The notes under the pieces are model-generated. The model was not told where the DNA came from. It saw only the letters and a list, made by a program, of their open reading frames with translations, and made no database searches. A program made the translations under genes and the position numbers. From Aeromicrobium marinum DSM 15272 (GTDB taxonomy: Bacteria; Actinomycetota; Actinomycetes; Propionibacteriales; Nocardioidaceae): 64,000 bases of DNA. The stretch is taken from the NCBI RefSeq assembly GCF_000160775.2, contig NZ_CM001024.1:1675712-1739711 (forward strand), in the 5' to 3' direction. The first letter of the stretch is position 1. Each line of letters opens with the position of its first letter. Of the stretch, positions 3,552 through 60,435 are shown piece by piece.

Positions 3552-3977
3552 GTGAGGGAGATCCGGAGGGTCGGCGACACCGTCGTGGTCGACGGCGCCG
3601 AACGTCGACTCACCTACCGGCCGCGGCGCGTCACCCTCGACGACGGCACCTGGGTGGCCCACGAGTCCCGCGGCGGATCGATGGCCTCGGTCTGGGCGGT
3701 CGACCTGGGCGACCGGTTCGTGGAGGTCGTGCACCTCGGGCACGGGCCCGTGGGCGGCGAGCTCGTCGTGGTGGTGCCCGACGCCGACCAGGTGCTGGTC
3801 GGCGACCTGTACCTGCCCCAGCTGCCCGAGCGGATCGACCCGACCTGGCCGGTGGCCGTCGACCTGCTGATCGGCATGGTCGGCCCCGGCACCCGGGTGC
3901 TCGCCACGGGAGGTCCCGTCGACCGCGACGAGCTGGTCGACTTCCACCAGCTGCTCCTCGGTGCGCTGCATGCCTGA
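3552..3977 (+). CDS. Hypothetical protein, MBL-fold-like fragment
   Basis: 141 aa from the GTG at 3552, divergent from hrcA and overlapping the next gene by 8 bp. The segment [19 protein letters not shown] followed by LVGDLYLP resembles the second half of metallo-beta-lactamase-fold hydrolases (a GH turn, a strand, then GDL), but the HxHxDH zinc motif and the first half of that fold are absent. It may therefore be a non-catalytic relic or a small domain of its own. The N-terminal part is beta-rich and contains many charged residues. Function unknown. Confidence 0.6.
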
Positions 3978-4806
3978 CCGCTACGGCGGCGACGTCCTCG
4001 CCGGGGACTGGCGCCGACCGTCGCGCGGGCGCACCACCGACGTCGTCGTCGAGCTCGGTCAGGTGGTCGAGGACGCCACCACGGGATTCCGCGGTGAGGT
4101 CGTCGGCATCGATCCGCAGATGGGCATGGTGGTGCTGGAGGACCGCCGCAGCACCCGCCGGAGCTTCCCCATGGGCCCGGGCTACCTGCTGGAGGGCCGA
4201 CCGGTCGCGCTGCGCCCGCCGGCGAAGACCGAGCGCCGGCCCTCCCGCACGGCGTCCGGCTCCGTCGCGGTGCACGGCGAACGGGCCCGGGTGGCCTTGC
4301 CGAGCCGCATCTGGGTCGAGGGCCGCCACGACGCCGAGCTGGTCGAGAAGGTGTGGGGCGACGACCTGCGGCTGGAGGGGGTCGCGGTGGAGTTCCTCGG
4401 CGGCATCGACGACCTGGCCGCCGAGGTCTCGACCTTCGCCCCCACCGCCCGGCGCCGACTGGGCGTGCTGGTCGACCACCTCGTACCCGGCTCGAAGGAG
4501 TCCCGGATCGCCGCGGGCCTGCGGGGTGTCCCCCACGTGCTGGTCGTCGGTCACCCGTACGTCGACGTCTGGCAGGCGGTCAAGCCGGACCGGCTCGGTC
4601 TTCGGCAGTGGCCGGAGGTGCCCCGCTCGGTGGAGTGGAAGAAGGGCATCTGTGCCGCCCTCGGGTGGCCGCACGCCGAGCAGGCCGACATCGCCCGGGC
4701 GTGGCAGCAGATCCTGCGTCAGGTCGACTCCTGGACCGACCTCGAGCCGTCGTTCCTGGGCCGGGTCGAGGAGCTCATCGACTTCGTCACCGCTCCCCCC
4801 ACCTGA
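3970..4806 (+). CDS. DUF3097 family protein
   Basis: 278 aa from the ATG at 3970 ([10 protein letters not shown]), overlapping the preceding gene by 8 bp. It belongs by overall sequence to the actinobacterial DUF3097 family. Recognisable blocks are [33 protein letters not shown] and [16 protein letters not shown], which resemble a Toprim-like arrangement (acidic E, then DxD-like residues); that resemblance is my inference. The first 90 residues look like a small beta-barrel. The gene often sits near hrcA and hemW in related genomes. It ends inside the long inverted repeat it shares with convergent hemW. Function unknown. Confidence 0.85.
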
Positions 4807-4888
4807 CCCCCACCCAGATGTGCTCCCGAATCAACCGTTTTCGGACATGAAACGGTTGATTCGGGAGCACATCTGGGTGGGGGTCAGG
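4802..4888. repeat. 39-bp perfect inverted repeat enclosing two convergent stop codons
   Basis: Arms 4802-4840 and 4850-4888 are exact reverse complements (39 bp each) around a 9-nt loop (TCGGACATG). The TGA of the DUF3097 gene (4804-4806) and the TGA of hemW (4886-4884 on the minus strand) lie at equivalent positions in the two arms. It can act as a bidirectional terminator, but it is much longer than needed and its core, GCTCCCGAATCAACCG, recurs at 22261-22276. Confidence 0.9.
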
Positions 4889-6092
4889 CGGTGACGGTGC
4901 GGATGACGTGGTCGGCGAGCAGTCGGCCCGTCAGCGTCAGGGTGACGCGGTCACCCTGTCGCTCCAGCAGGTCGTCCCGGACCAGCTGGTCGACGCCGAT
5001 CAGACCGTCGGCTGCGATGCCCTCACGCAGCCGCATCCGGAGCATGACGTCCTCGAGGCGAGCCGTGTCGGCGTCGATCGCCTCCGATCCCGCCTCGACC
5101 GTCTCCCCTGCCGCCAGCCGTTGGGCGTAGGCCGCGGGGTGCTTGACGTTCCACCACCGCCTCCCCTGCAGGAAGGAGTGCGCACCGGGACCGATGCCCC
5201 ACCACTCGCCCCCGTTCCAGTACAGCTCGTTGTGACGGCAGCGGGCAGCGTCGTCGAGGGCCCAGTTCGACAGCTCGTACCACGACAGGCCTGCTGCACC
5301 GAGCACGTCGTCGGCCAGCAGGTACTTGTCGGCCGTCTCGTCGTCGTCGGGCATGACCAGCTCGCCCCGCGCGACCCGCCGGGCGAAGGCCGTGCCCCGT
5401 TCGACGATCAGCGCATAGGCGCTGACGTGGTCGGGGGCCAGGTCGACGGCGTGGTCGAGGGTGCGTCGCCAGTCGTCGACCGACTCCGTCGGGCTGCCGT
5501 AGATGAGGTCGACGCTCACCTGCTCGAACCCCGCTGCCCTGGCCCACCGCACCGCGTCGGGCACACGGGCGGGGTCGTGGGTCCGGTCCAGGACCGCCAG
5601 CACGTGCGGGACGGCGGACTGGACCCCGAACGAGATGCGGTTGAACCCGCCGGCGCGCAGCGTCTGCAACGCCTGCGGGTCGACCGAGTCGGGGTTGGCC
5701 TCCGTGGTGACCTCCACGTCGTCGGCCAGTCCCCAGGCCTCGTCGATCGCCCGCAGGACTCGGACCAGGTCGGCGGCCGGCAGCTGGGTCGGCGTTCCAC
5801 CACCGAAGAAGACGGTGCTGATCTCCCGCGGTCCGGTGGTGGCGGCGGCCCGGCGGATCTCGGCGATCGCGGTGTCGGCGTAGGACGCGCGCGTCGCCCC
5901 CTCGCCCAGCTCGTCGGCCGTGTAGGTGTTGAAGTCGCAGTACCCGCACCGGACCGTGCAGAACGGGATGTGGACGTAGACGCCGAAGGCGGCTACCGAA
6001 GGCTCCGCGACGCCGAAGGCGGCTACCGACGGCCCCACGACGACGGACGGCCGCCCACCGGGTCGGGTGGGCGGCCGTTCGTCAAGGTTCAC
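4884..6092 (-). CDS. hemW: Radical SAM protein HemW (heme chaperone, HemN-like)
   Basis: HemW-type radical SAM protein, often annotated as oxygen-independent coproporphyrinogen III oxidase; characterised HemW proteins bind and transfer heme. The [4Fe-4S] motif is CTVRCGYC with C45, C49 and C52 when counted from the ATG at 6092; the HemN C-terminal domain follows. The annotated N-terminus is suspicious. Residues 5-15 are encoded by a hairpin (6047-6078) that looks like the fadD terminator, and residues about 21-38 come from a 30-bp-period duplication giving PSVAAFGV twice. A GTG at 6038 is the likelier start, giving a shorter protein of 384 aa. Stop codon lies inside the 4802-4888 inverted repeat. 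Confidence 0.9.
   Translation of the reverse strand: MNLDERPPTRPGGRPSVVVGPSVAAFGVAEPSVAAFGVYVHIPFCTVRCGYCDFNTYTADELGEGATRASYADTAIAEIRRAAATTGPREISTVFFGGGTPTQLPAADLVRVLRAIDEAWGLADDVEVTTEANPDSVDPQALQTLRAGGFNRISFGVQSAVPHVLAVLDRTHDPARVPDAVRWARAAGFEQVSVDLIYGSPTESVDDWRRTLDHAVDLAPDHVSAYALIVERGTAFARRVARGELVMPDDDETADKYLLADDVLGAAGLSWYELSNWALDDAARCRHNELYWNGGEWWGIGPGAHSFLQGRRWWNVKHPAAYAQRLAAGETVEAGSEAIDADTARLEDVMLRMRLREGIAADGLIGVDQLVRDDLLERQGDRVTLTLTGRLLADHVIRTVTA
5979..6029. repeat. Tandem 21-bp repeat (period 30) in the hemW 5' end
   Basis: The 21-bp segment at 5979-5999 (starting GACGCCGAAGGC) is repeated exactly at 6009-6029, with a 9-bp spacer. In the hemW frame it duplicates PSVAAFGV immediately before the conserved YVHIPFC. 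It looks like a recent local duplication in a tolerant N-terminal tail. Confidence 0.8.
6047..6078 (-). terminator. Hairpin downstream of the acyl-CoA synthetase gene
   Basis: Perfect 13-bp arms (ACGGCCGCCCACC at 6047-6059 and its complement at 6066-6078) around a 6-nt loop, 18 bp past the stop of the acyl-CoA synthetase gene. No U-tract follows, as is usual in high-GC actinobacteria. It overlaps the first codons of the longest hemW frame, which argues that hemW starts further downstream. Confidence 0.6.
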
Positions 6093-16251: not shown

Positions 16252-16388
16252 GCGAGGAGTCTAGCGAGCGAGCACGACGCACCTGATCCACCGAACCCGA
16301 CCACGGGCCGAGCGTGCACAGCCCACGCGACCACGCCGACGCGACCATGGGCCGAGCGCAGCGAGGCAGGGGCCCGGGCGAAGCCCGG

Positions 16389-16464
16389 CACCGGCGAGGA
16401 ACGAGCCGGTGGTGCGGCGAGCCTGAGCACCGGCGAGGAACGAGCCGGTGGTGCGGCGAGCCTG
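16389..16464. repeat. Two tandem 37-bp hairpin repeats between leuS and degV
   Basis: A 37-bp unit (CACCGGCGAGGAACGAGCCG then GTGGTGCGGCGAGCCTG) occurs exactly at 16389-16425 and 16428-16464. Each unit folds as CACCGGC / GCCGGTG around the loop GAGGAACGA. The rest of the 226-bp gap (16252-16477) contains a degenerate double copy of CGACCACGGGCCGAGCG near 16299 and 16340 and no gene. It follows the leuS stop by 14 bp, so it may also end leuS transcription. Confidence 0.85.
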
Positions 16465-20627: not shown

Positions 20628-21494
20628 GTGGAACGAACCACACCCGGCACGACCGAGCTCGTCGACCCGGGACGCGGTGCGGGGCTGGTCGACGTGGTGC
20701 GTCGGCGCTACCTGCTGAGCCTGCTGATCCGCAAGGACGTCCAGGTCCGGTACCGCGGCTCGGTGCTCGGATGGGCCTGGTCGTTCGTCAAGCCCGCTGC
20801 TCAGTTCACGGTGTTCTACTTCGCCCTGGGCGTGTTCCTGCGGCTCAACCAGAGCATCGAGAACTACCCGATCTACCTGTTCTCCGGGTTGATCCTCATC
20901 AACTTCTTCAGCGAGGCGTTCTCCAACGCCACCAAGGCGCTGGTCGACAACGGGGCCCTGATCAAGAAGATCTACCTGCCCCGCGAGCTCTTCCCGGTGT
21001 CCATGATCGTCGTGGCGCTGGTCAACTTCCTGCCGCAGATGCTGATCCTGCTGGGGGTGTGCCTGTTCAACGGCTGGGACCCCAGCGTCGGTCAGGTGGC
21101 CGGTCTGTTCCTCGCCGGGTTGATCATCATGATCTTCGCCCTGGGGCTCGGCATGCTGTTCGGCGCGGCGAACGTCTCGTTCCGCGACTCCCAGAACTTC
21201 GTCGAGCTGATCGTCATGGTCGCCCCGTGGGCGTCGCCGGTCCTCTACCAGTGGAGCATGGTGCGCGACGTCGTGCCGCAGTGGTTGTTCACGCTGTACC
21301 AGCTCAACCCGATCACGTCGGCGGTCAACCTGATGCACTCGGGGTTCTGGGAGCCCACCACGGGTGAGGCCAGCACCGCGGCACCCGACACGGCGCTGTT
21401 CGCGGCGATCGGCCTCACGACCTCGCTGCTCGTGCTCGCGACCGGTCAGTACGTCTTCCGTCGTCTGGAGGGTCGCTTTGCCCAAGACCTCTGA
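20628..21494 (+). CDS. Polysaccharide ABC transporter permease (Wzm-like, ABC-2 type)
   Basis: Membrane subunit of a polysaccharide (O-antigen/galactan-type) exporter. 288 aa from the GTG at 20628, with AGGAG 9 nt upstream; a TTG one codon earlier is an alternative. About six membrane segments. Typical blocks are LIRKDVQVRYRGSVLGWAWS at the N-terminus and ASPVLYQWSMV near the end. The following ATPase gene overlaps it by 17 bp. The 152-bp gap to divergent glf should contain both promoters. Similar to the Rv3783 permease of M. tuberculosis, from memory. Confidence 0.92.
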   Translation: MERTTPGTTELVDPGRGAGLVDVVRRRYLLSLLIRKDVQVRYRGSVLGWAWSFVKPAAQFTVFYFALGVFLRLNQSIENYPIYLFSGLILINFFSEAFSNATKALVDNGALIKKIYLPRELFPVSMIVVALVNFLPQMLILLGVCLFNGWDPSVGQVAGLFLAGLIIMIFALGLGMLFGAANVSFRDSQNFVELIVMVAPWASPVLYQWSMVRDVVPQWLFTLYQLNPITSAVNLMHSGFWEPTTGEASTAAPDTALFAAIGLTTSLLVLATGQYVFRRLEGRFAQDL

Positions 21495-22239
21495 CGCGCC
21501 CGTGGTCGTCACCGACCCCCGGGCGTGCATCGTCGTGAGCGAGGTGCGCAAGACCTTCCTGCTGCGCCACACGCACTCGCTCAAGGAGTCGTTCATCGCG
21601 CTGATCCGCAAGAAGCAGATCAGCTCGACGTTCAACGCGCTCGAGGGGGTCGACGTGACCGTCCGCGAGGGTGAGTCGGTCGCGCTGCTGGGGTTCAACG
21701 GTTCGGGCAAGTCGACCCTGCTGAAGCTGATCTCGGGCGTCCTGCGCCCCGACGCGGGCAGCATCCGCACCCGCGGTCGCATCGCCGGTCTGATCGAGGT
21801 CGGGGCAGGGTTCCACCCCGACCTGTCGGGCCGCGAGAACATCTACCTCAACGCGGCGATCCTGGGCATGGGTCGAGACGAGATCGACGAACGCTTCGAC
21901 GACATCGTCGCGTTCAGCGAGATCGAGAAGTTCATCGACACCGAGGTCAAGCACTACTCCTCGGGCATGTTCCTGCGCCTGGCGTTCTCGGTCGCCATCC
22001 ACACCGAGGTCGACATCCTGCTGGTCGACGAGATCCTGTCGGTGGGCGACGAGCCGTTCCAGGCCAAGTGCCTCGCCCGCATCCGCGAGCTGCACGACGC
22101 CGGCAAGACCCTCGTGGTCGTGAGCCACGACCTGGACATGGTCGCGCGGCTGTGCGACCGCGGGGTGGTGCTGCGCGAGGGCCGGGTCGTCTTCGACGGC
22201 GACGCCACCGAGGCGGTCGAGCACCTCCGCGCCCGCTGA
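21478..22239 (+). CDS. Polysaccharide ABC transporter ATP-binding protein (Wzt-like)
   Basis: Energises the Wzm-like permease. 253 aa from the TTG at 21478 (preceded by GGAGGG), overlapping the permease by 17 bp. Walker A GFNGSGKST at residues 72-80, signature SSGM at 161-164 (the abbreviated form typical of glycan exporters), Walker B ILLVDEIL at 180-187 and VVSHD as H-loop. It lacks the C-terminal carbohydrate-binding domain of Wzt proteins that recognise a capped glycan, so export is probably of the lipid-linked type without such gating (inference). Its stop lies in the 22236-22341 inverted repeat. Confidence 0.93.
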   Translation: MPKTSDAPVVVTDPRACIVVSEVRKTFLLRHTHSLKESFIALIRKKQISSTFNALEGVDVTVREGESVALLGFNGSGKSTLLKLISGVLRPDAGSIRTRGRIAGLIEVGAGFHPDLSGRENIYLNAAILGMGRDEIDERFDDIVAFSEIEKFIDTEVKHYSSGMFLRLAFSVAIHTEVDILLVDEILSVGDEPFQAKCLARIRELHDAGKTLVVVSHDLDMVARLCDRGVVLREGRVVFDGDATEAVEHLRAR

Positions 22240-22341
22240 CCCCCACCCCGACCCAGAAGTGCTCCCGAATCAACCGATCGCGCTGTCAGAACGGTTGATT
22301 CGGGAGCACTTCTGGGTCGGGGTCTGGGGGGTGGGGGTCAG
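22236..22341. repeat. Long inverted repeat enclosing two convergent stop codons, second copy
   Basis: Inner arms 22245-22276 and 22292-22323 are perfect 32-bp complements with a 15-nt loop. Outer arms CTGACCCCC (22236-22244) and GGGGGTCAG (22333-22341) pair as well, with a 9-nt bulge on the right. The ATPase-gene TGA (22237-22239) and the TrkA-like gene TGA (22340-22338 on the minus strand) sit in the outer arms. The core GCTCCCGAATCAACCG at 22261-22276 is identical to that of the repeat at 4802-4888. Confidence 0.9.
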
Positions 22342-23012
22342 CTCAGGGCGCAGTATGCCTCGACCTTCGGGGTCGGCCCCGACACGATCAGCTCGTCCCC
22401 GACCGTCACGTAGGTGTCGGCCTTCGCGTAGGTGAAGTCCTCGCCCCGCGTCTTGAGGCCCACGACCGTCACCCCGTACTTCTGACGGACGTTGGACTCC
22501 GTCAGGGTGCGGTTGGTCGTGCACTCCGGCGCCTTGGTGCGTGCGATGGCGAAGCCGTCGTCGAACTCGATGAAGTCGGTCATCGTCCCGGTGACGAGGT
22601 GGGCGACCCGCTTGCCCATCTGCGACTCGGGCCGGATCACGTGCGTCGCCCCGACCCGCTCCAGGATCGCCGCGTGCTTGCCGCTGATGGCCTTGGCCCA
22701 GACCTCCTGGACCCCGAGGTCGAGCAGGCCCAGCACCGTGAGGACGCTGGCCTCGATGTCGGTACCGATGCCGACGACCGCGATGCTGAACTGGTCGGCA
22801 CCGATCTGGCGCAGGGCCTCGGTGTCGGTCGTGTCCGCCGCGACCACGTGCGTGAAGTCGCTGGCGTACTTCTGGACGATGTCGGCCCGCTCGTCGACGG
22901 CCAGCACGTCGTGGCCCAGCTGCACGAGCGAACGCGCCACCGCCGAGCCGAACCGGCCCAGCCCCAGCACGATGACCGGTGCGGTGGGTGAGGTGTCCTT
23001 TGACTTAGCCAA
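22338..23012 (-). CDS. Potassium uptake regulatory subunit (TrkA/KtrA-like RCK protein)
   Basis: Cytoplasmic nucleotide-binding regulator of a Ktr/Trk potassium transporter. 224 aa: an RCK-N Rossmann domain with GLGRFGSAVARSL near residue 17 and DERAD at the ribose-binding end of the next strand, then an RCK-C domain (about 140-224). Length matches single-RCK KtrA rather than the double-length E. coli TrkA. It overlaps the transporter gene by 8 bp, so the two are coupled. Its stop lies in the 22236-22341 inverted repeat. Confidence 0.93.
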   Translation of the reverse strand: MAKSKDTSPTAPVIVLGLGRFGSAVARSLVQLGHDVLAVDERADIVQKYASDFTHVVAADTTDTEALRQIGADQFSIAVVGIGTDIEASVLTVLGLLDLGVQEVWAKAISGKHAAILERVGATHVIRPESQMGKRVAHLVTGTMTDFIEFDDGFAIARTKAPECTTNRTLTESNVRQKYGVTVVGLKTRGEDFTYAKADTYVTVGDELIVSGPTPKVEAYCALS

Positions 23013-35348: not shown

Positions 35349-35996
35349 ACCGAGTTCGCCTCGCTGCGCTGGCTGGCGGTCGCCAGGGAACGCAGCGACC
35401 GTGAGGGCGAAACCCGAGGCGACCCTCGCGCAAGGTTCGCCTCGCTGCGCTCACGTCCGCTCGTCCCTCGCGGACTGGCGAACACCAGCTCGCGAGCGAT
35501 CTCGGTGGTTGAGGTGCTGCGAGGAACGAGCAGCCTCGAAACCACGCCCCCTTGCGGTCGCCAGGGAGCGCAGCGACCGTGAGGGCGAAGCCCGAGGCGA
35601 CCCTCACCCAAGGTTCGCCTCGCTCCGCTCACGCCCTCGCAAGCTCGGGCTGGCGAACACAGGCCGCGCCAGTTGACCGTGGCGCGCGAGACTGCGGTCG
35701 CCAGGGAGCGCAGCGACCGTGAGGGCGGAGCCCGAGGCGACCCTCACGCAAGGTTCGCCTCGCTTCGCTCACGCCCTCGTTCCTCGGGCTGGCGAACGGT
35801 GCCTACGGTCGCCAGGGAGCGCAGCGACCGTGAGGGCGGAGCCCGAGGCGGCCCTCACGCGAGGTTCGCCTCGCTGCGCTCACGCCCTCGCCAGCTCGGG
35901 CTGGCGAACACGGAGCCGCGCGCGGTCGCCAGGGAGCGCAGCGACCGTGAGGGCGGAGCCCGAGGCGACCCCCACGCAAGATTCGGCTCGGTCAGC
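35349..35996. repeat. Mosaic repeat region with five copies of a roughly 110-bp element
   Basis: A unit beginning CGGTCGCCAGGGAGCGCAGC starts at 35377, 35555, 35695, 35806 and 35923 (the last truncated). Each contains self-complementary parts (GACCGTGAGGG, GAGGCGACCCTC, AAGGTTCGCCTCGCT) and ends with CTCGGGCTGGCGAAC. Spacing is uneven (178, 140, 111, 117), and between the first two copies lies a different hairpin repeat (35504-35545) also found near 58.6 kb. No gene is supported in the whole 733-bp gap between DUF5819 copy 2 and the tRNA. Confidence 0.9.
35504..35545. repeat. Hairpin repeat with GAGGAACGAG loop core (family also at 58.6 kb)
   Basis: Contains GGTTGAGGTGCTGCGAGGAA, then CGAGCAGCCTCGAAACCAC; GAGGAACGAG is at 35521-35530. 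The reverse-orientation relatives are at 58562-58604 and 58653-58695. Confidence 0.85.
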
Positions 35997-36010
35997 GGGG
36001 GCGCAGGGAA

Positions 36011-36052
36011 CGACGAAGGGCCCGGGCCGATGGCCCGGACCCTCCTTCGTCG
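36011..36052 (-). terminator. Terminator hairpin after tRNA-Ala
   Basis: CGACGAAGG (36011-36019) pairs with CCTTCGTCG (36044-36052), and the inner CCGGGCC pairs with GGCCCGG around GAT. It starts 3 nt beyond the tRNA 3' end on the minus strand. Confidence 0.75.
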
Positions 36053-36055
36053 ATG

Positions 36056-36128
36056 TGGAGCATAGGAGATTCGAACTCCTGACCTCTTCCATGCCATGGA
36101 AGCGCGCTACCAACTGCGCCAATGCCCC
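36056..36128 (-). tRNA. tRNA-Ala (anticodon GGC)
   Basis: 73-nt cloverleaf read from 36128: acceptor GGGGCAT pairs with ATGCTCC (one G-T), D arm with TTGGTAG, anticodon stem CTTCC/GGAAG with loop ATGGCAT (anticodon GGC for GCC codons), and T arm with GTTCGAATC. The CCA end is not encoded. It follows the repeat mosaic and precedes the histidine phosphatase gene on the same strand, a position where actinobacteria often have this tRNA next to the rsfS-phosphatase operon. Confidence 0.95.
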
Positions 36129-48486: not shown

Positions 48487-49116
48487 ATGGGCCTGTTCTC
48501 CCGCGGCAAGGCGCCGCTCACCGTCACCTACCGTGCCAAGAGCGAGTCCGGTGGCCTCGACCAGGTCCTGTCGTTCCGCAACGACACGGAGACCGCGTTG
48601 CTGCCGACCCTGCGGTTCGTGGCCCGCGACCACTACGGCCGCGAGCTGCCCCACGTGGTGCCGCACAGCGTGCTGGGCATGGACCGGGGCGCCGTGTGCG
48701 TGCCGCCGGGCTCCACCGGCATCGACGTGCTGGCGTTCACCGGCGAGGGGAACCGCTCGGTGCGCGGCGTCGAGGCGCACGTGGTGGAGATCATGGAGGC
48801 CGAGCACCCGCCCCTCACGCAGGACGTGACGGTCGTGATGATCGACCTCGAGCAGCGCAAGACCTACGAGCCGGCCGACTTCTGGGGCGTGGGCCTGGCC
48901 AATCCCAACGACGTCGAGGTCGAGATGCGGGTCGTGCTCATCCAGCACGAGCCGCAGGCGCCGAAGGACGACCCGCGACAGGTCGTCGACGTGGTCGAGA
49001 TGACCGAGACCGTGACGGTCGCCCCGCAGGGCCATCAGGTCATCTGGCTGCCCGAGGACGTCCGCGGTCAGTACGACGGCGTGCTCGGCGCTCCGGTGCC
49101 CGCCCTGCGCCTCTGA
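48487..49116 (+). CDS. Hypothetical protein
   Basis: 209 aa, soluble, no signal peptide. Starts MGLFSRGKAPLTVTYRAKSESGG. It is beta-rich, with recurring pattern of alternating hydrophobic residues, and contains FRNDTETALLPTLRFVARDHYGRELP and DVTVVMIDLEQRKTYEPADFWG. This reads like two immunoglobulin-like or beta-sandwich domains (my impression). It is divergent from the radical SAM gene (65 bp) and convergent with ndk, and ends at the 49117-49234 hairpin cluster. I do not recognise a family. Confidence 0.7.
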   Translation: MGLFSRGKAPLTVTYRAKSESGGLDQVLSFRNDTETALLPTLRFVARDHYGRELPHVVPHSVLGMDRGAVCVPPGSTGIDVLAFTGEGNRSVRGVEAHVVEIMEAEHPPLTQDVTVVMIDLEQRKTYEPADFWGVGLANPNDVEVEMRVVLIQHEPQAPKDDPRQVVDVVEMTETVTVAPQGHQVIWLPEDVRGQYDGVLGAPVPALRL

Positions 49117-49234
49117 CCCCCGCCGCAGTTTCCCAGGATGACCTGGGAATCCGTCACCGGGCACAGAAAACTGGCACCTGACCCCTGTTGCAACCGGGGT
49201 GAGGTGTCAGTTTCCCAGGATCACCTGGGAAACA
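49117..49234. repeat. Cluster of three hairpins between convergent genes
   Basis: A 24-bp unit (CAGTTTCCCAGGAT-S-ACCTGGGAA) occurs at 49126-49149 and 49208-49231 with one difference, and each is palindromic (TTCCCAGG/CCTGGGAA; 10-bp arms in the second copy). Between them an 18-bp inverted repeat (49068+100 to 49213: arms 49168-49185 and 49196-49213, 16 of 18 paired) surrounds TGTTGCAACC. The flanking gene ends are the hypothetical gene (stop 49114-49116) and ndk (stop 49237-49235). Confidence 0.85.
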
Positions 49235-49648
49235 TCAGGCGGGGAGGTCGGGGAACCACAGGGCGATCTCGCGAGCGGCGGACTCCTCGGAGTCCGAGGC
49301 GTGCACGAGGTTCTCGCGGTTGGACAGGGAGAGGTCCCCCCGGATCGTGCCGGGAGCGGCGGCGCGCCCGTCGGTGGCGCCGTTGAGTGCCCGCACCACG
49401 CCGATGGCCTCGTCGCCCTCGAGCACGACGGCGACGAGCGGTCCCGACACCGCGAACTCCCGCAGCGGCGGGTACCAGGGCTGCTCGACGTGCTCGGCGT
49501 AGTGCGCGTCGGCCATCGCCGCGTCGATCGACCGCAGCTGCATCGCGACGAGCGTCAGGCCCTTGGCCTCGAAGCGGGACAGGATCGCGCCGGTGAGTCC
49601 GCGGCGGACCGCATCGGGCTTGAGCAGGACGAGCGTGCGCTGGGTCAT
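49235..49648 (-). CDS. ndk: Nucleoside-diphosphate kinase
   Basis: Transfers the gamma phosphate between nucleoside triphosphates and diphosphates. 137 aa, normal length, from the ATG at 49648 (MTQRTLVLLKPDAV). Active-site histidine H116 in RENLVHASDS; VEQPWYPPLREF and RGDL are family blocks. Conserved order folC-DUF4233-ndk as in M. tuberculosis. A longer open frame upstream is only a GC-rich shadow. Confidence 0.97.
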   Translation of the reverse strand: MTQRTLVLLKPDAVRRGLTGAILSRFEAKGLTLVAMQLRSIDAAMADAHYAEHVEQPWYPPLREFAVSGPLVAVVLEGDEAIGVVRALNGATDGRAAAPGTIRGDLSLSNRENLVHASDSEESAAREIALWFPDLPA

Positions 49649-58541: not shown

Positions 58542-58760
58542 GCGCTGCCCCGAACCGTCGGTGTGGTCTCGAGGCTGCTCGTTCCTCGCAGCACCTCGAC
58601 CACCGAGGGGCAGGCGACCGTCGAGGCCACCTTGGCCGTCGGTGTGGTCTCGAGGCTGCTCGTTCCTCGCAGCACCTCGACCACCGAGGAGCGGGCGACC
58701 ACCGAGGCCACCCTGGCCGTCTGAGCGCAGCACCTCGACCACCGGGGAGCAGGCGACCGG
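58515..58760. repeat. Repeat array carrying copies of the valS 3' end and two hairpin repeats
   Basis: The last codons of valS (ACCGTCGAGGCCACCCTGGC...TCTGAGCG at 58515-58544) recur at 58617-58639 and, with the TGA and following GCG, at 58698-58727. Between them lie two exact copies of a GTGTGGTCTCGAGGCTGCTC-type hairpin (58561-58605 and 58652-58696), with CTCGTTCCTC cores at 58578-58587 and 58669-58678, and a partial third near 58727-58745. No gene is supported between valS and ptsI. Confidence 0.85.
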
Positions 58761-58761
58761 G

Positions 58762-60435
58762 TCAGGCGAGGGCTGCCGCCGCGGCCTCCCGGGCGGCAGC
58801 CGGATCGCCTGCGGCGAGCGCGGCGCGGGCCGCGGCCCGGCACTGCTCGAGGGTGACGGCCGAGAGCTTCGACCCCACCAGCGGCGCGGCGGTCGCGGCC
58901 GCCGAGAGTGAGGTGACCCCCAACCCGACCAGCACGCAGGCCAGGGACGCGTCGGCGGCCGCCTCGCCGCACACACCGACCGGCTTCCCGGCGTCCTGAC
59001 CGGCACGGGCCACCAGCTCGACCAGGGTGAGCAGCGCAGGCTGCCACGGATCGGTGAGCCGCGACAGCGACGGCGCCATCCGGTCGGCGGCGAACGTGTA
59101 CTGGCTCAGGTCGTTGGTCCCGATCGAGACGAAGTCCACGTGGCGCAGGATCCGGTCGGCCAGCAGGGCCGCGCTCGGGATCTCGACCATCACGCCCGGG
59201 ACCAGTCCCCGTGACCTGGCCCGGTCGCCGAACCAGGCCGCCTCCTGCTCGGTCGCGACCATCGGCGCCATGACCCAGACCGGGGCGTCGTGGTCCGCGG
59301 CGGCCGTCGCGATCGCGTCGAGCTGGCGGTCCAGCATGGCCGGGTCCCGCAGGCCGAGCCGCAGGCCCCTCACGCCGAGCGCCGGGTTGGGCTCGTCGCT
59401 GATGGTGGCGAAGCTGACCGGCTTGTCGGACCCGGCGTCGAGGGTGCGGATCACCACCTTGCGGCCCCTCATCGCGGCCAGGACCTCGCCGTAGATGTCG
59501 GCCTGCTCGACGACGGTGGGTTCGACGTCGCGGTCGAGGAAGCACAGCTCGGTGCGGAACAGCCCGACCCCCTGCACCGGACGCTCCGCAGCCGCGCGGG
59601 CACCGGCCCCGTCCTGGACGTTGGCCAGCACGTCGACCCGGTGGCCGTCGGACGTGGCCCCGGGCCCCGTCCACGACCGCGCGGCCTCGCCGACCGCGGC
59701 AGCCGCCTCGGTGCGCAGCCGGACCACGTCGACGGCGGGGTGGGTCACCACCTCACCCGTCGCCCCGTCGACCAGCACCGGGGTCCCGACCTCGAGGTCG
59801 TCCAGACCGGTGACCCCCACGACGCACGGGATGCCGAGCTGTCGGGCGATGATCGTGGTGTGGCTGGTTGCTCCGCCGAGCGAGGTCGCGATCGCCACGA
59901 TCACGGCGGGGTCCAGGCCGGCGGTGTCCGCCGGAGCCAGGTCGTCGGCACACAGCACGGACGGCTCGGTCGGCTGCGGGATGCCCGGCTCCGGCTGGCC
60001 GGTGAGCTCGGCGACGATCCGGTCGCGCACGTCGGCGAGGTCGGTGACCCGCTCGGCCATCAGTCCTCCGACGGAAGCGAACATCGCGCTGAGCTCCTCG
60101 ACCGCACCGGCGGTCGCGGCGCACACGCCATGGCCGTCGGCCAACCGCTTCTCGACCAGGGCGGCCAGTCCGCGGTCCCGAGCGAGCGAGGAGGTGGCCA
60201 TCAGCACCCCGGCCGCCGCACCGCTGGCCCGGGCGGCCCGGGTCGCCAGTCGGTCGGCCACCGTCGCGGCCGCCTCGGAGAACTGGGCCGACCCCTTCGA
60301 GACGGCCACCAGCGGATCGCGGTCCGGCATCGAGGGGCGCGGCATGGGCCGGACGACCGGCCCCGACCCGACCCCGGGAACCACCCCGGCGCCCCGCAGC
60401 ACCTGACGGTCAGGGGTGGTGGTCAGCGGCTCCAT
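58762..60435 (-). CDS. ptsI: Phosphoenolpyruvate-protein phosphotransferase (PTS enzyme I)
   Basis: First component of the sugar phosphotransferase system, passing phosphate from PEP to HPr. 557 aa with the N-terminal HPr-binding/phosphohistidine domain (H192 in GGATSHTTIIARQLG) and the PEP-binding domain with VGLFRTELCFLDRD and DFVSIGTNDLSQYTFAADR. Divergent from fruR, with 171 bp between, so both may be controlled from that region. HPr and the fructose EIIABC (fruA) are not in the window. Confidence 0.95.
   Translation of the reverse strand: MEPLTTTPDRQVLRGAGVVPGVGSGPVVRPMPRPSMPDRDPLVAVSKGSAQFSEAAATVADRLATRAARASGAAAGVLMATSSLARDRGLAALVEKRLADGHGVCAATAGAVEELSAMFASVGGLMAERVTDLADVRDRIVAELTGQPEPGIPQPTEPSVLCADDLAPADTAGLDPAVIVAIATSLGGATSHTTIIARQLGIPCVVGVTGLDDLEVGTPVLVDGATGEVVTHPAVDVVRLRTEAAAAVGEAARSWTGPGATSDGHRVDVLANVQDGAGARAAAERPVQGVGLFRTELCFLDRDVEPTVVEQADIYGEVLAAMRGRKVVIRTLDAGSDKPVSFATISDEPNPALGVRGLRLGLRDPAMLDRQLDAIATAAADHDAPVWVMAPMVATEQEAAWFGDRARSRGLVPGVMVEIPSAALLADRILRHVDFVSIGTNDLSQYTFAADRMAPSLSRLTDPWQPALLTLVELVARAGQDAGKPVGVCGEAAADASLACVLVGLGVTSLSAAATAAPLVGSKLSAVTLEQCRAAARAALAAGDPAAAREAAAAALA

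Follow-up and report, generated by a model that had tools for sequence, protein, structure and literature searches.

Dispersed gene-end hairpins of Aeromicrobium, REP-like in placement, are gained, decay and change in concert among close relatives

Short palindromes at the ends of bacterial genes are usually put down either to RAYT transposases or to terminators that arose independently. Among the closest described systems, the GTAG-tagged members of the REP/BIME/REPIN class have units of 20-40 bp and are moved by a REP-associated tyrosine transposase (RAYT), and CGTC-tagged REPs are described as palindromic repeats at gene ends, reportedly without a dedicated transposase (PMC3733652). The stem-loop repeats Ype, Efa and Bor lie preferentially near the 3' ends of coding sequences, as far as their description goes, and an RNA-level role in mRNA stability has been proposed for them (PMC1590033). 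In mycobacteria, U-less 'I-shaped' hairpins at most 50 bp from a stop codon are presented in one review as the main intrinsic terminators, although the same review has Rho-dependent termination dominating and cites a paper whose title opposes it on the U-tract (PMC12288462).

Here we describe a hairpin family of Aeromicrobium marinum and its relatives that is undescribed in the open-access literature searched, where no family with such a sequence was found, in agreement with the sequence-only reading of this DNA, and that is nevertheless of a known gene-end hairpin kind. Its location and dispersal match those of REPs and of the stem-loop repeat families of earlier surveys, in what these report of placement (PMC3733652, PMC1590033, PMC3116915). 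With GTAG REPs it shares palindromes dispersed over the genome, chiefly after genes and between convergent or unidirectional pairs, as well as species-specific versions and presence/absence variation, but it differs from them in having no detected Y1_Tnp (in 49 genus genomes) and no GTAG tag, and in its longer single hairpin (65 bp), its fewer copies (14) and its concerted change at orthologous sites. Unlike the CGTC-tagged REPs, it has no enrichment of CGTC at the hairpin edges (22/103 copies near the core versus 20/103 at a control distance), and its hairpin is longer. Ype, Efa and Bor have other hosts (Yersinia, Enterococcus and Bordetella) and are set apart by their published description rather than base by base (PMC1590033). 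The mycobacterial terminators resemble it in being U-tract-free hairpins close to the stop (within 50 bp for 12 of the 14 A. marinum copies) in an actinobacterial host, but the account of them describes no repeat family, and the hairpins treated here are predicted ones (PMC12288462).

Two copies lie in the window, a stretch of 64,000 nucleotides of the A. marinum genome that was analysed as a whole, together with these features (window coordinates; genome coordinates of the cores in brackets):

22235..22342, no strand: element copy 2 including its outer arms, with both stop codons within the symmetric outer arms
22252..22316 (G000:1697963-1698027): conserved 65-bp core of copy 2, CCCAGAAGTGCTCCCGAATCAACCG, 15 nt, then the inverse
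4799..4891, no strand: element copy 1 including its outer arms
4813..4877 (G000:1680524-1680588): conserved 65-bp core of copy 1
21364..22239, + strand: ABC transporter ATPase (Wzt-like), stop within the left outer arm of copy 2
22338..23012, - strand: TrkA-like protein (TrkA_N, TrkA_C), stop within the right outer arm of copy 2
3961..4806, + strand: DUF3097 protein, stop within the left outer arm of copy 1
4884..6092, - strand: radical SAM protein, presumably HemW-like, stop within the right outer arm of copy 1

The sequence-only reading had placed palindromes with a common core at 22236..22341 and 4802-4888, and both are indeed near-perfect, with arms of 40-42 nt and a shared 65-bp core, CCCAGA(A/T)GTGCTCCCGAATCAACCG followed by 15 nt and the inverse. 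The arms of copy 1 (4799-4840/4850-4891) are 98% complementary and those of copy 2 (22240-22279/22289-22328) 93%, the latter with a perfect outer 15-nt pair (22235-22249/22328-22342) that contains both TGA stops (22237-22239 on the + strand, 22338-22340 on the - strand). That reading was also right in placing the stops of both convergent genes in the symmetric outer arms, at both copies, and in naming the neighbours of the second site Wzt-like and TrkA-like, but not in giving the loops different lengths (9 and 15 nt): in each copy a distance of 15 nt separates the core arms, and the apparent 9-nt loop of copy 1 reflects three additional pairs there. The 16-mer GCTCCCGAATCAACCG has four exact matches in the window, every one within these two palindromes (the chance expectation of about one match applies to the search at up to 3 mismatches). 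Predicted RNA hairpins from each strand of the two copies reach about -81 to -86 kcal/mol, with z of -11 to -17 relative to shuffles on either strand and none of 200 shuffles equalling them. An Rfam search of the window at gathering score returned a single tRNA and no other known structured RNA family. Copy 1 matched none of 72,556 plasmid and 50,697 phage records at E 1e-5, and a plasmid or phage origin of the element was rejected on this basis.

The A. marinum genome, searched as the one 3.08-Mb contig that holds the window, contains not two but 14 copies, scattered singly and all intergenic; the dispersed family proposed from the window thus exists, with further copies and none within genes. 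They align without gaps over 77 columns, so that the spacing of the arms is constant. A first covariance model built from these copies recovered the same 14 and one weak match (1868054, E 0.014) that was left out of the count. The latter looks to be another palindrome (1868051-1868129; L065, L104), whose arms contain ACGTTTC and which possibly belongs to a second family. With an 18-mer at up to 3 mismatches, 25 of 25 arm matches lay inside the 14 palindromes; a shorter 16-mer, allowed 2 mismatches, gave 23 matches, of which 3 lay outside them and look like chance.

According to a gene caller whose codon usage was learned from the window, eight of the 14 copies stand between convergent genes, four between co-directional and two between divergent ones. 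A position 'precisely at convergent gene ends', as had been claimed, therefore holds for eight copies, and not for the four behind a single stop or the two between divergent genes. For the 12 non-divergent copies the nearest stop is at most 8 bp from the 77-bp element, with a 2-bp overlap in one. The divergent pairs (YqeY/metallophosphatase and DUF2834/glutamate dehydrogenase) have good Pfam matches and are genuine exceptions; a terminator between divergent genes makes little sense, and these two copies count against a role at transcript ends. Pfam matches exist for each of the 28 gene slots at their flanks, with one gene common to two copies; the neighbours resemble ordinary genes of metabolism, transport and regulation, and none matches a transposase family in Pfam.

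Position was further assessed in 104 copies at 98 loci of 34 genomes (207 strand matches), a non-random sample of best-scoring or deliberately fetched copies made up of all 14 A. marinum copies, 17 from G017, 18 from G054 (one weak), 12 from G015 and 1-3 from each other genome. Both neighbours could be placed for 102 copies: 65 stand at convergent junctions, 32 at co-directional and 5 at divergent ones. Of the 55 junctions in the window, 7 are convergent; the element occupies two of these, and one depends on a small gene call that is doubtful. Relative to this background the convergent excess has a binomial p of ~4e-33, for a sample of copies that is not random. A stop codon is found within 25 bp of the core in 89 of the 99 copies adjoining a gene 3' end, the other ten being six that overlap the gene by over 5 bp, in some cases probably through an error in the gene call, and four that lie farther off; the upstream stop is within 25 bp for 27 of the 32 co-directional copies. 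Eight copies of G053, one of which belongs to the sample, tell against this preference: they comprise four convergent, two co-directional, one divergent and one overlapping a gene call. The concentration at convergent gene ends and the compatibility with a bidirectional terminator that had been noted at the two window copies are upheld.

Across species the element has a length of about 65 bp (65-66 bp in most copies), with a 25-bp stem and a loop of about 15 nt. Each arm keeps a near-invariant outer GAWKTGC-like block and a near-invariant inner CACC block, the eight or so bases between them and the loop vary between species, and each genome has its own sequence version. This middle segment, which diverges most from species to species, also shows the lowest conservation among the copies of G017 and among those of G054. 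Among 28 copies from 13 genomes, found by a structure model and hence biased towards paired copies, 92.7% of cells are paired, two-sided changes occur in 19 of 25 pairs, and the covariation score is 0.493 versus 0.121 for shuffles (reached by 0/500; slid controls ≤0.131). Within single genomes the scores are 0.136 versus 0.089 shuffled in G017 (0/500, the two-sided pair count being reached by 16/500 shuffles) and 0.128 versus 0.062 in G054 (0/500, pair count reached by 99/500). In A. marinum itself (0.088 versus 0.071, reached by 35/500) pair changes are not clearly above shuffles, and so give no clear sign of selection on each copy. In a palindrome, covariation is expected of pairing in RNA and in single-stranded DNA alike, and it would likewise result if one arm were copied onto the other.

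The block pattern with exact spacing, searched in a contig collection of 84,980 species, matched Aeromicrobium only, in 12 contigs (11 from one MAG and one from strain Root495). The first model was positive in 13 of 39 genomes, A. marinum included, these being 13 of the 25 from the genus and none of the 14 others from the order. A model termed R2, built from 28 copies of 13 genomes, found matches in 39 of 49 Aeromicrobium genomes, again including A. marinum, and in 33 of the 37 of good quality (≥90% complete), with at most 88 strand-hits, or about 44 copies, per genus genome; G018 has four weak strand-hits only. An order-wide scan with R2, in which up to 17 candidates were scored per genome, was positive in at least 36 of 293 genomes, 20 of them Aeromicrobium. 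Two genomes of the neighbouring genus g11 have at least 15-17 strand-hits each, and the four g11 copies inspected resemble the Aeromicrobium hairpins; in the same scan four genomes of genus g9 gave 1-2 weak matches each, and ten genomes of genus g3 (8-9 Mb) gave at least 1-11 strand-hits, the single g3 copy inspected (G135) being a doubtful member of the family.

Orthology of both window sites was examined in 41 genomes, with matches in 40 and 39, and 30 loci were inspected per site. Read by eye, the DUF3097/radical-SAM junction carries other hairpins in G002, G019, G046 and G048, and in G021, G022, G024 and G050 it has two nearly abutting stops and no hairpin. The palindromes at this junction in G019 (L119) and G048 (L143) contain ACGTTTC and possibly belong to the second family mentioned above; in G012, tandem palindromes (GATGAGGGTTTCGGGC..GCAAACCCTCATC and TCAGCGGACCGG repeats; L166, L132) occupy the orthologous Trk and radical-SAM gene ends. 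Because the flanks of the window sites are too diverged for exact empty sites, we turned to a sister trio, G053, G042 and G005, close relatives with flank pieces 76-97% identical, and compared nine sites (S231-S239). At S232, G053 has a full element, accompanied by a short tandem duplication of the flank, and the junctions of G042 and G005 are clean and element-free; since two relatives are empty, this is a gain in G053 (or, less simply, two losses). Decayed hairpins are found at S231 in G042 and at S233 in G042 and G005, the two at S233 being visible in the alignment and missed by the arm finder. An apparent single-arm remnant is left at S231 in G005, and a less clear one at S237 in G042, where the arm-finder row is spurious. 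G005 has no hairpin at S235 and S239, and the full element is present in G053 alone at S237 and S238. At S234 and S236 (two of the nine sites) G005 has an unrelated palindrome with a GGACACTTCCGGGG arm beside the same left-hand gene, the right-hand flank at S236 differing too. Copies have thus been gained, have decayed, have apparently shrunk to one arm and have been replaced by other palindromes. Since some orthologous junctions, in G021, G022, G024 and G050 as well as at the trio sites, have no hairpin, the element is dispensable.

The replacing palindrome, CGGACACTTCCGGG...CCCGGAAGTGTCCG, of about 50 bp, is itself dispersed. Its CGGACACTTCCGGG arm has 15 matches in G005 and 36 in G018, of which 10 and 24 are in pairs 36 bp apart, as well as 6 in G042, 8 in G053, 1 in A. 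marinum and none in G017; among these six genomes it is most frequent in G018, and a reversed control gave 0-1 matches per genome. Eighteen loci in G005, G018, G042 and G053 (L297, L299-L303, L306, L308, L309, L311, L314, L315, L319, L321-L324 and L326) comprise 6 convergent, 11 co-directional and 1 divergent.

The hairpins of G053 and G042 have evolved in concert at five of their six shared orthologous sites. At S231, S234, S235, S236 and S239, GGTA is present on 10/10 arms of G053 and 0/10 of G042, which at the same place has GGAA on 8/10 and GGGA on 2/10; at the sixth, S233, G053 retains GGAA on both arms and has not changed with the rest. Some copies elsewhere have two different arms, each of them identical to, or one base away from, an arm found elsewhere in the respective genome's set of copies (such as L099 of G017, L113 of G015 and L056 of A. 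marinum). Such mixed arms hint at arm-wise exchange between copies, and the copying of already mismatched copies could be another source of them.

On balance we favour seeing in these elements a REP-like family of 3'-end hairpins that probably serve as two-way transcript-end signals, as U-less terminators or stabilisers, and are spread and homogenised without a RAYT. Transcription from either side would give a nearly identical and very stable hairpin, which is why we infer that the hairpins are probably two-way signals. They may mark RNA 3' ends as 'I-shaped' terminators that lack a U-tract, such as have been proposed in mycobacteria, and alternatively or additionally may block 3'-to-5' RNA decay; with the U-tract absent and the mycobacterial literature mixed, we give neither role preference. 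A canonical intrinsic terminator was rejected, as a terminator scan found no site with a U-tract and at most 4 T in the 8 nt after the core. Elements would persist where insertions at gene ends are tolerated or useful, and new copies and sameness within a genome would arise by copying between loci rather than through a RAYT, along a route that may be another transposase, or else template switching or conversion acting perhaps on one arm at a time. A more specific proposal, tentative and in our estimate rather improbable, is of a transposase-free concerted evolution in which gene-end hairpins of Aeromicrobium, and probably of related genera, would rewrite each other throughout the genome, arm by arm, through template switching between hairpins. 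The two-way transcript ends of a species would then co-evolve as a single population, which a new palindrome family would periodically take over.

That the hairpins are MITEs, non-autonomous elements moved in trans by a DDE-type or other transposase recognising the conserved outer and inner blocks, is unlikely but the strongest of the alternatives: they are short and dispersed with inverted arms, two conserved blocks per arm and species-specific expansion, and the gain at S232 is clean. However, target-site duplications of 3-9 bp do not exceed the highest value among 30 shuffles. In the A. marinum genome no larger element bounded by these ends, and hence no parent, is seen, since each of the 25 arm matches of the 18-mer falls inside one of the 14 palindromes; the genes flanking these match no transposase family, and orthologous sites alter their sequence in place. 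Membership in the REP/BIME/REPIN class, with mobilisation by a RAYT, we regard as very unlikely. The species-specific dispersed palindromes are placed as REPs are described to be, between convergent or unidirectional genes (PMC3733652), and the A. marinum copies are, as expected of REPs, all intergenic; the family is palindromic, extragenic and enriched behind genes. It shows, however, neither a RAYT gene, the GTAG end nor the 20-40 bp unit: Y1_Tnp (PF01797), the transposase that the sequence-only reading had suggested looking for, was detected neither in A. marinum (0/1) nor in any of the 49 genus genomes (0/49), although 5 of 14 control genomes were positive by the same search, GTAG is found no more than 8 bp from the core in 2/103 copies, CGTC near the core is at its control level, and the core measures 65 bp. 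Strict REP/BIME identity is therefore not supported, and a present-day RAYT as mover was rejected; one may have been present formerly and since lost. The hairpins would function like REP-type or terminator-type gene-end hairpins, and are not REPs by membership since the defining features tested (RAYT, GTAG tag, unit size) are lacking. Of the earlier REP/BIME-like description, location and dispersal stand and strict identity does not, so that as a whole that interpretation is partly supported.

If the elements were sites of a sequence-specific DNA- or RNA-binding protein, with all sites of a genome tracking changes in its specificity, the near-invariant blocks, the 65-66 bp length of most copies, the two-way symmetry and the concerted change in sister species would follow; this would require an identical double change at many sites individually, and the species-variable middle is also least conserved within G017 and G054 and the element is absent at some orthologous junctions, which makes it improbable. 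That they are ordinary intrinsic terminators, independently evolved and alike by chance or composition, accords with stable hairpins behind stop codons, but sequence identity across loci, constant spacing and blocks shared genus-wide, together with the absent U-tract, leave it hardly credible. The family shows homogenisation particular to each species at orthologous positions, with no Y1_Tnp detectable in the genus. It offers a test case for how short repeats spread and stay alike in bacteria that have no dedicated transposase, and for the question whether transcripts of actinobacteria end at U-tract-free hairpins; close relatives whose sites are full, decayed, seemingly one-armed or empty have already been identified.

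Other repeats are present in the window. At 49116-49235 a long hairpin of other sequence (CAGTTTCCCAGGAT...) lies between convergent genes, one of them encoding nucleoside diphosphate kinase, and at 58555-58762 a convergent junction holds two tandem 81-nt repeats, each with GTGTGGTCTCGAGGCTGC..GCAGCACCTCGACCAC inside. Two tandem 39-nt copies (100% match) occupy a co-directional intergenic region at 16388-16464, and five 106-nt repeats at 35377-36028, 74-94% identical to the reference copy, end beside a tRNA-Ala(ggc) at 36055-36128.
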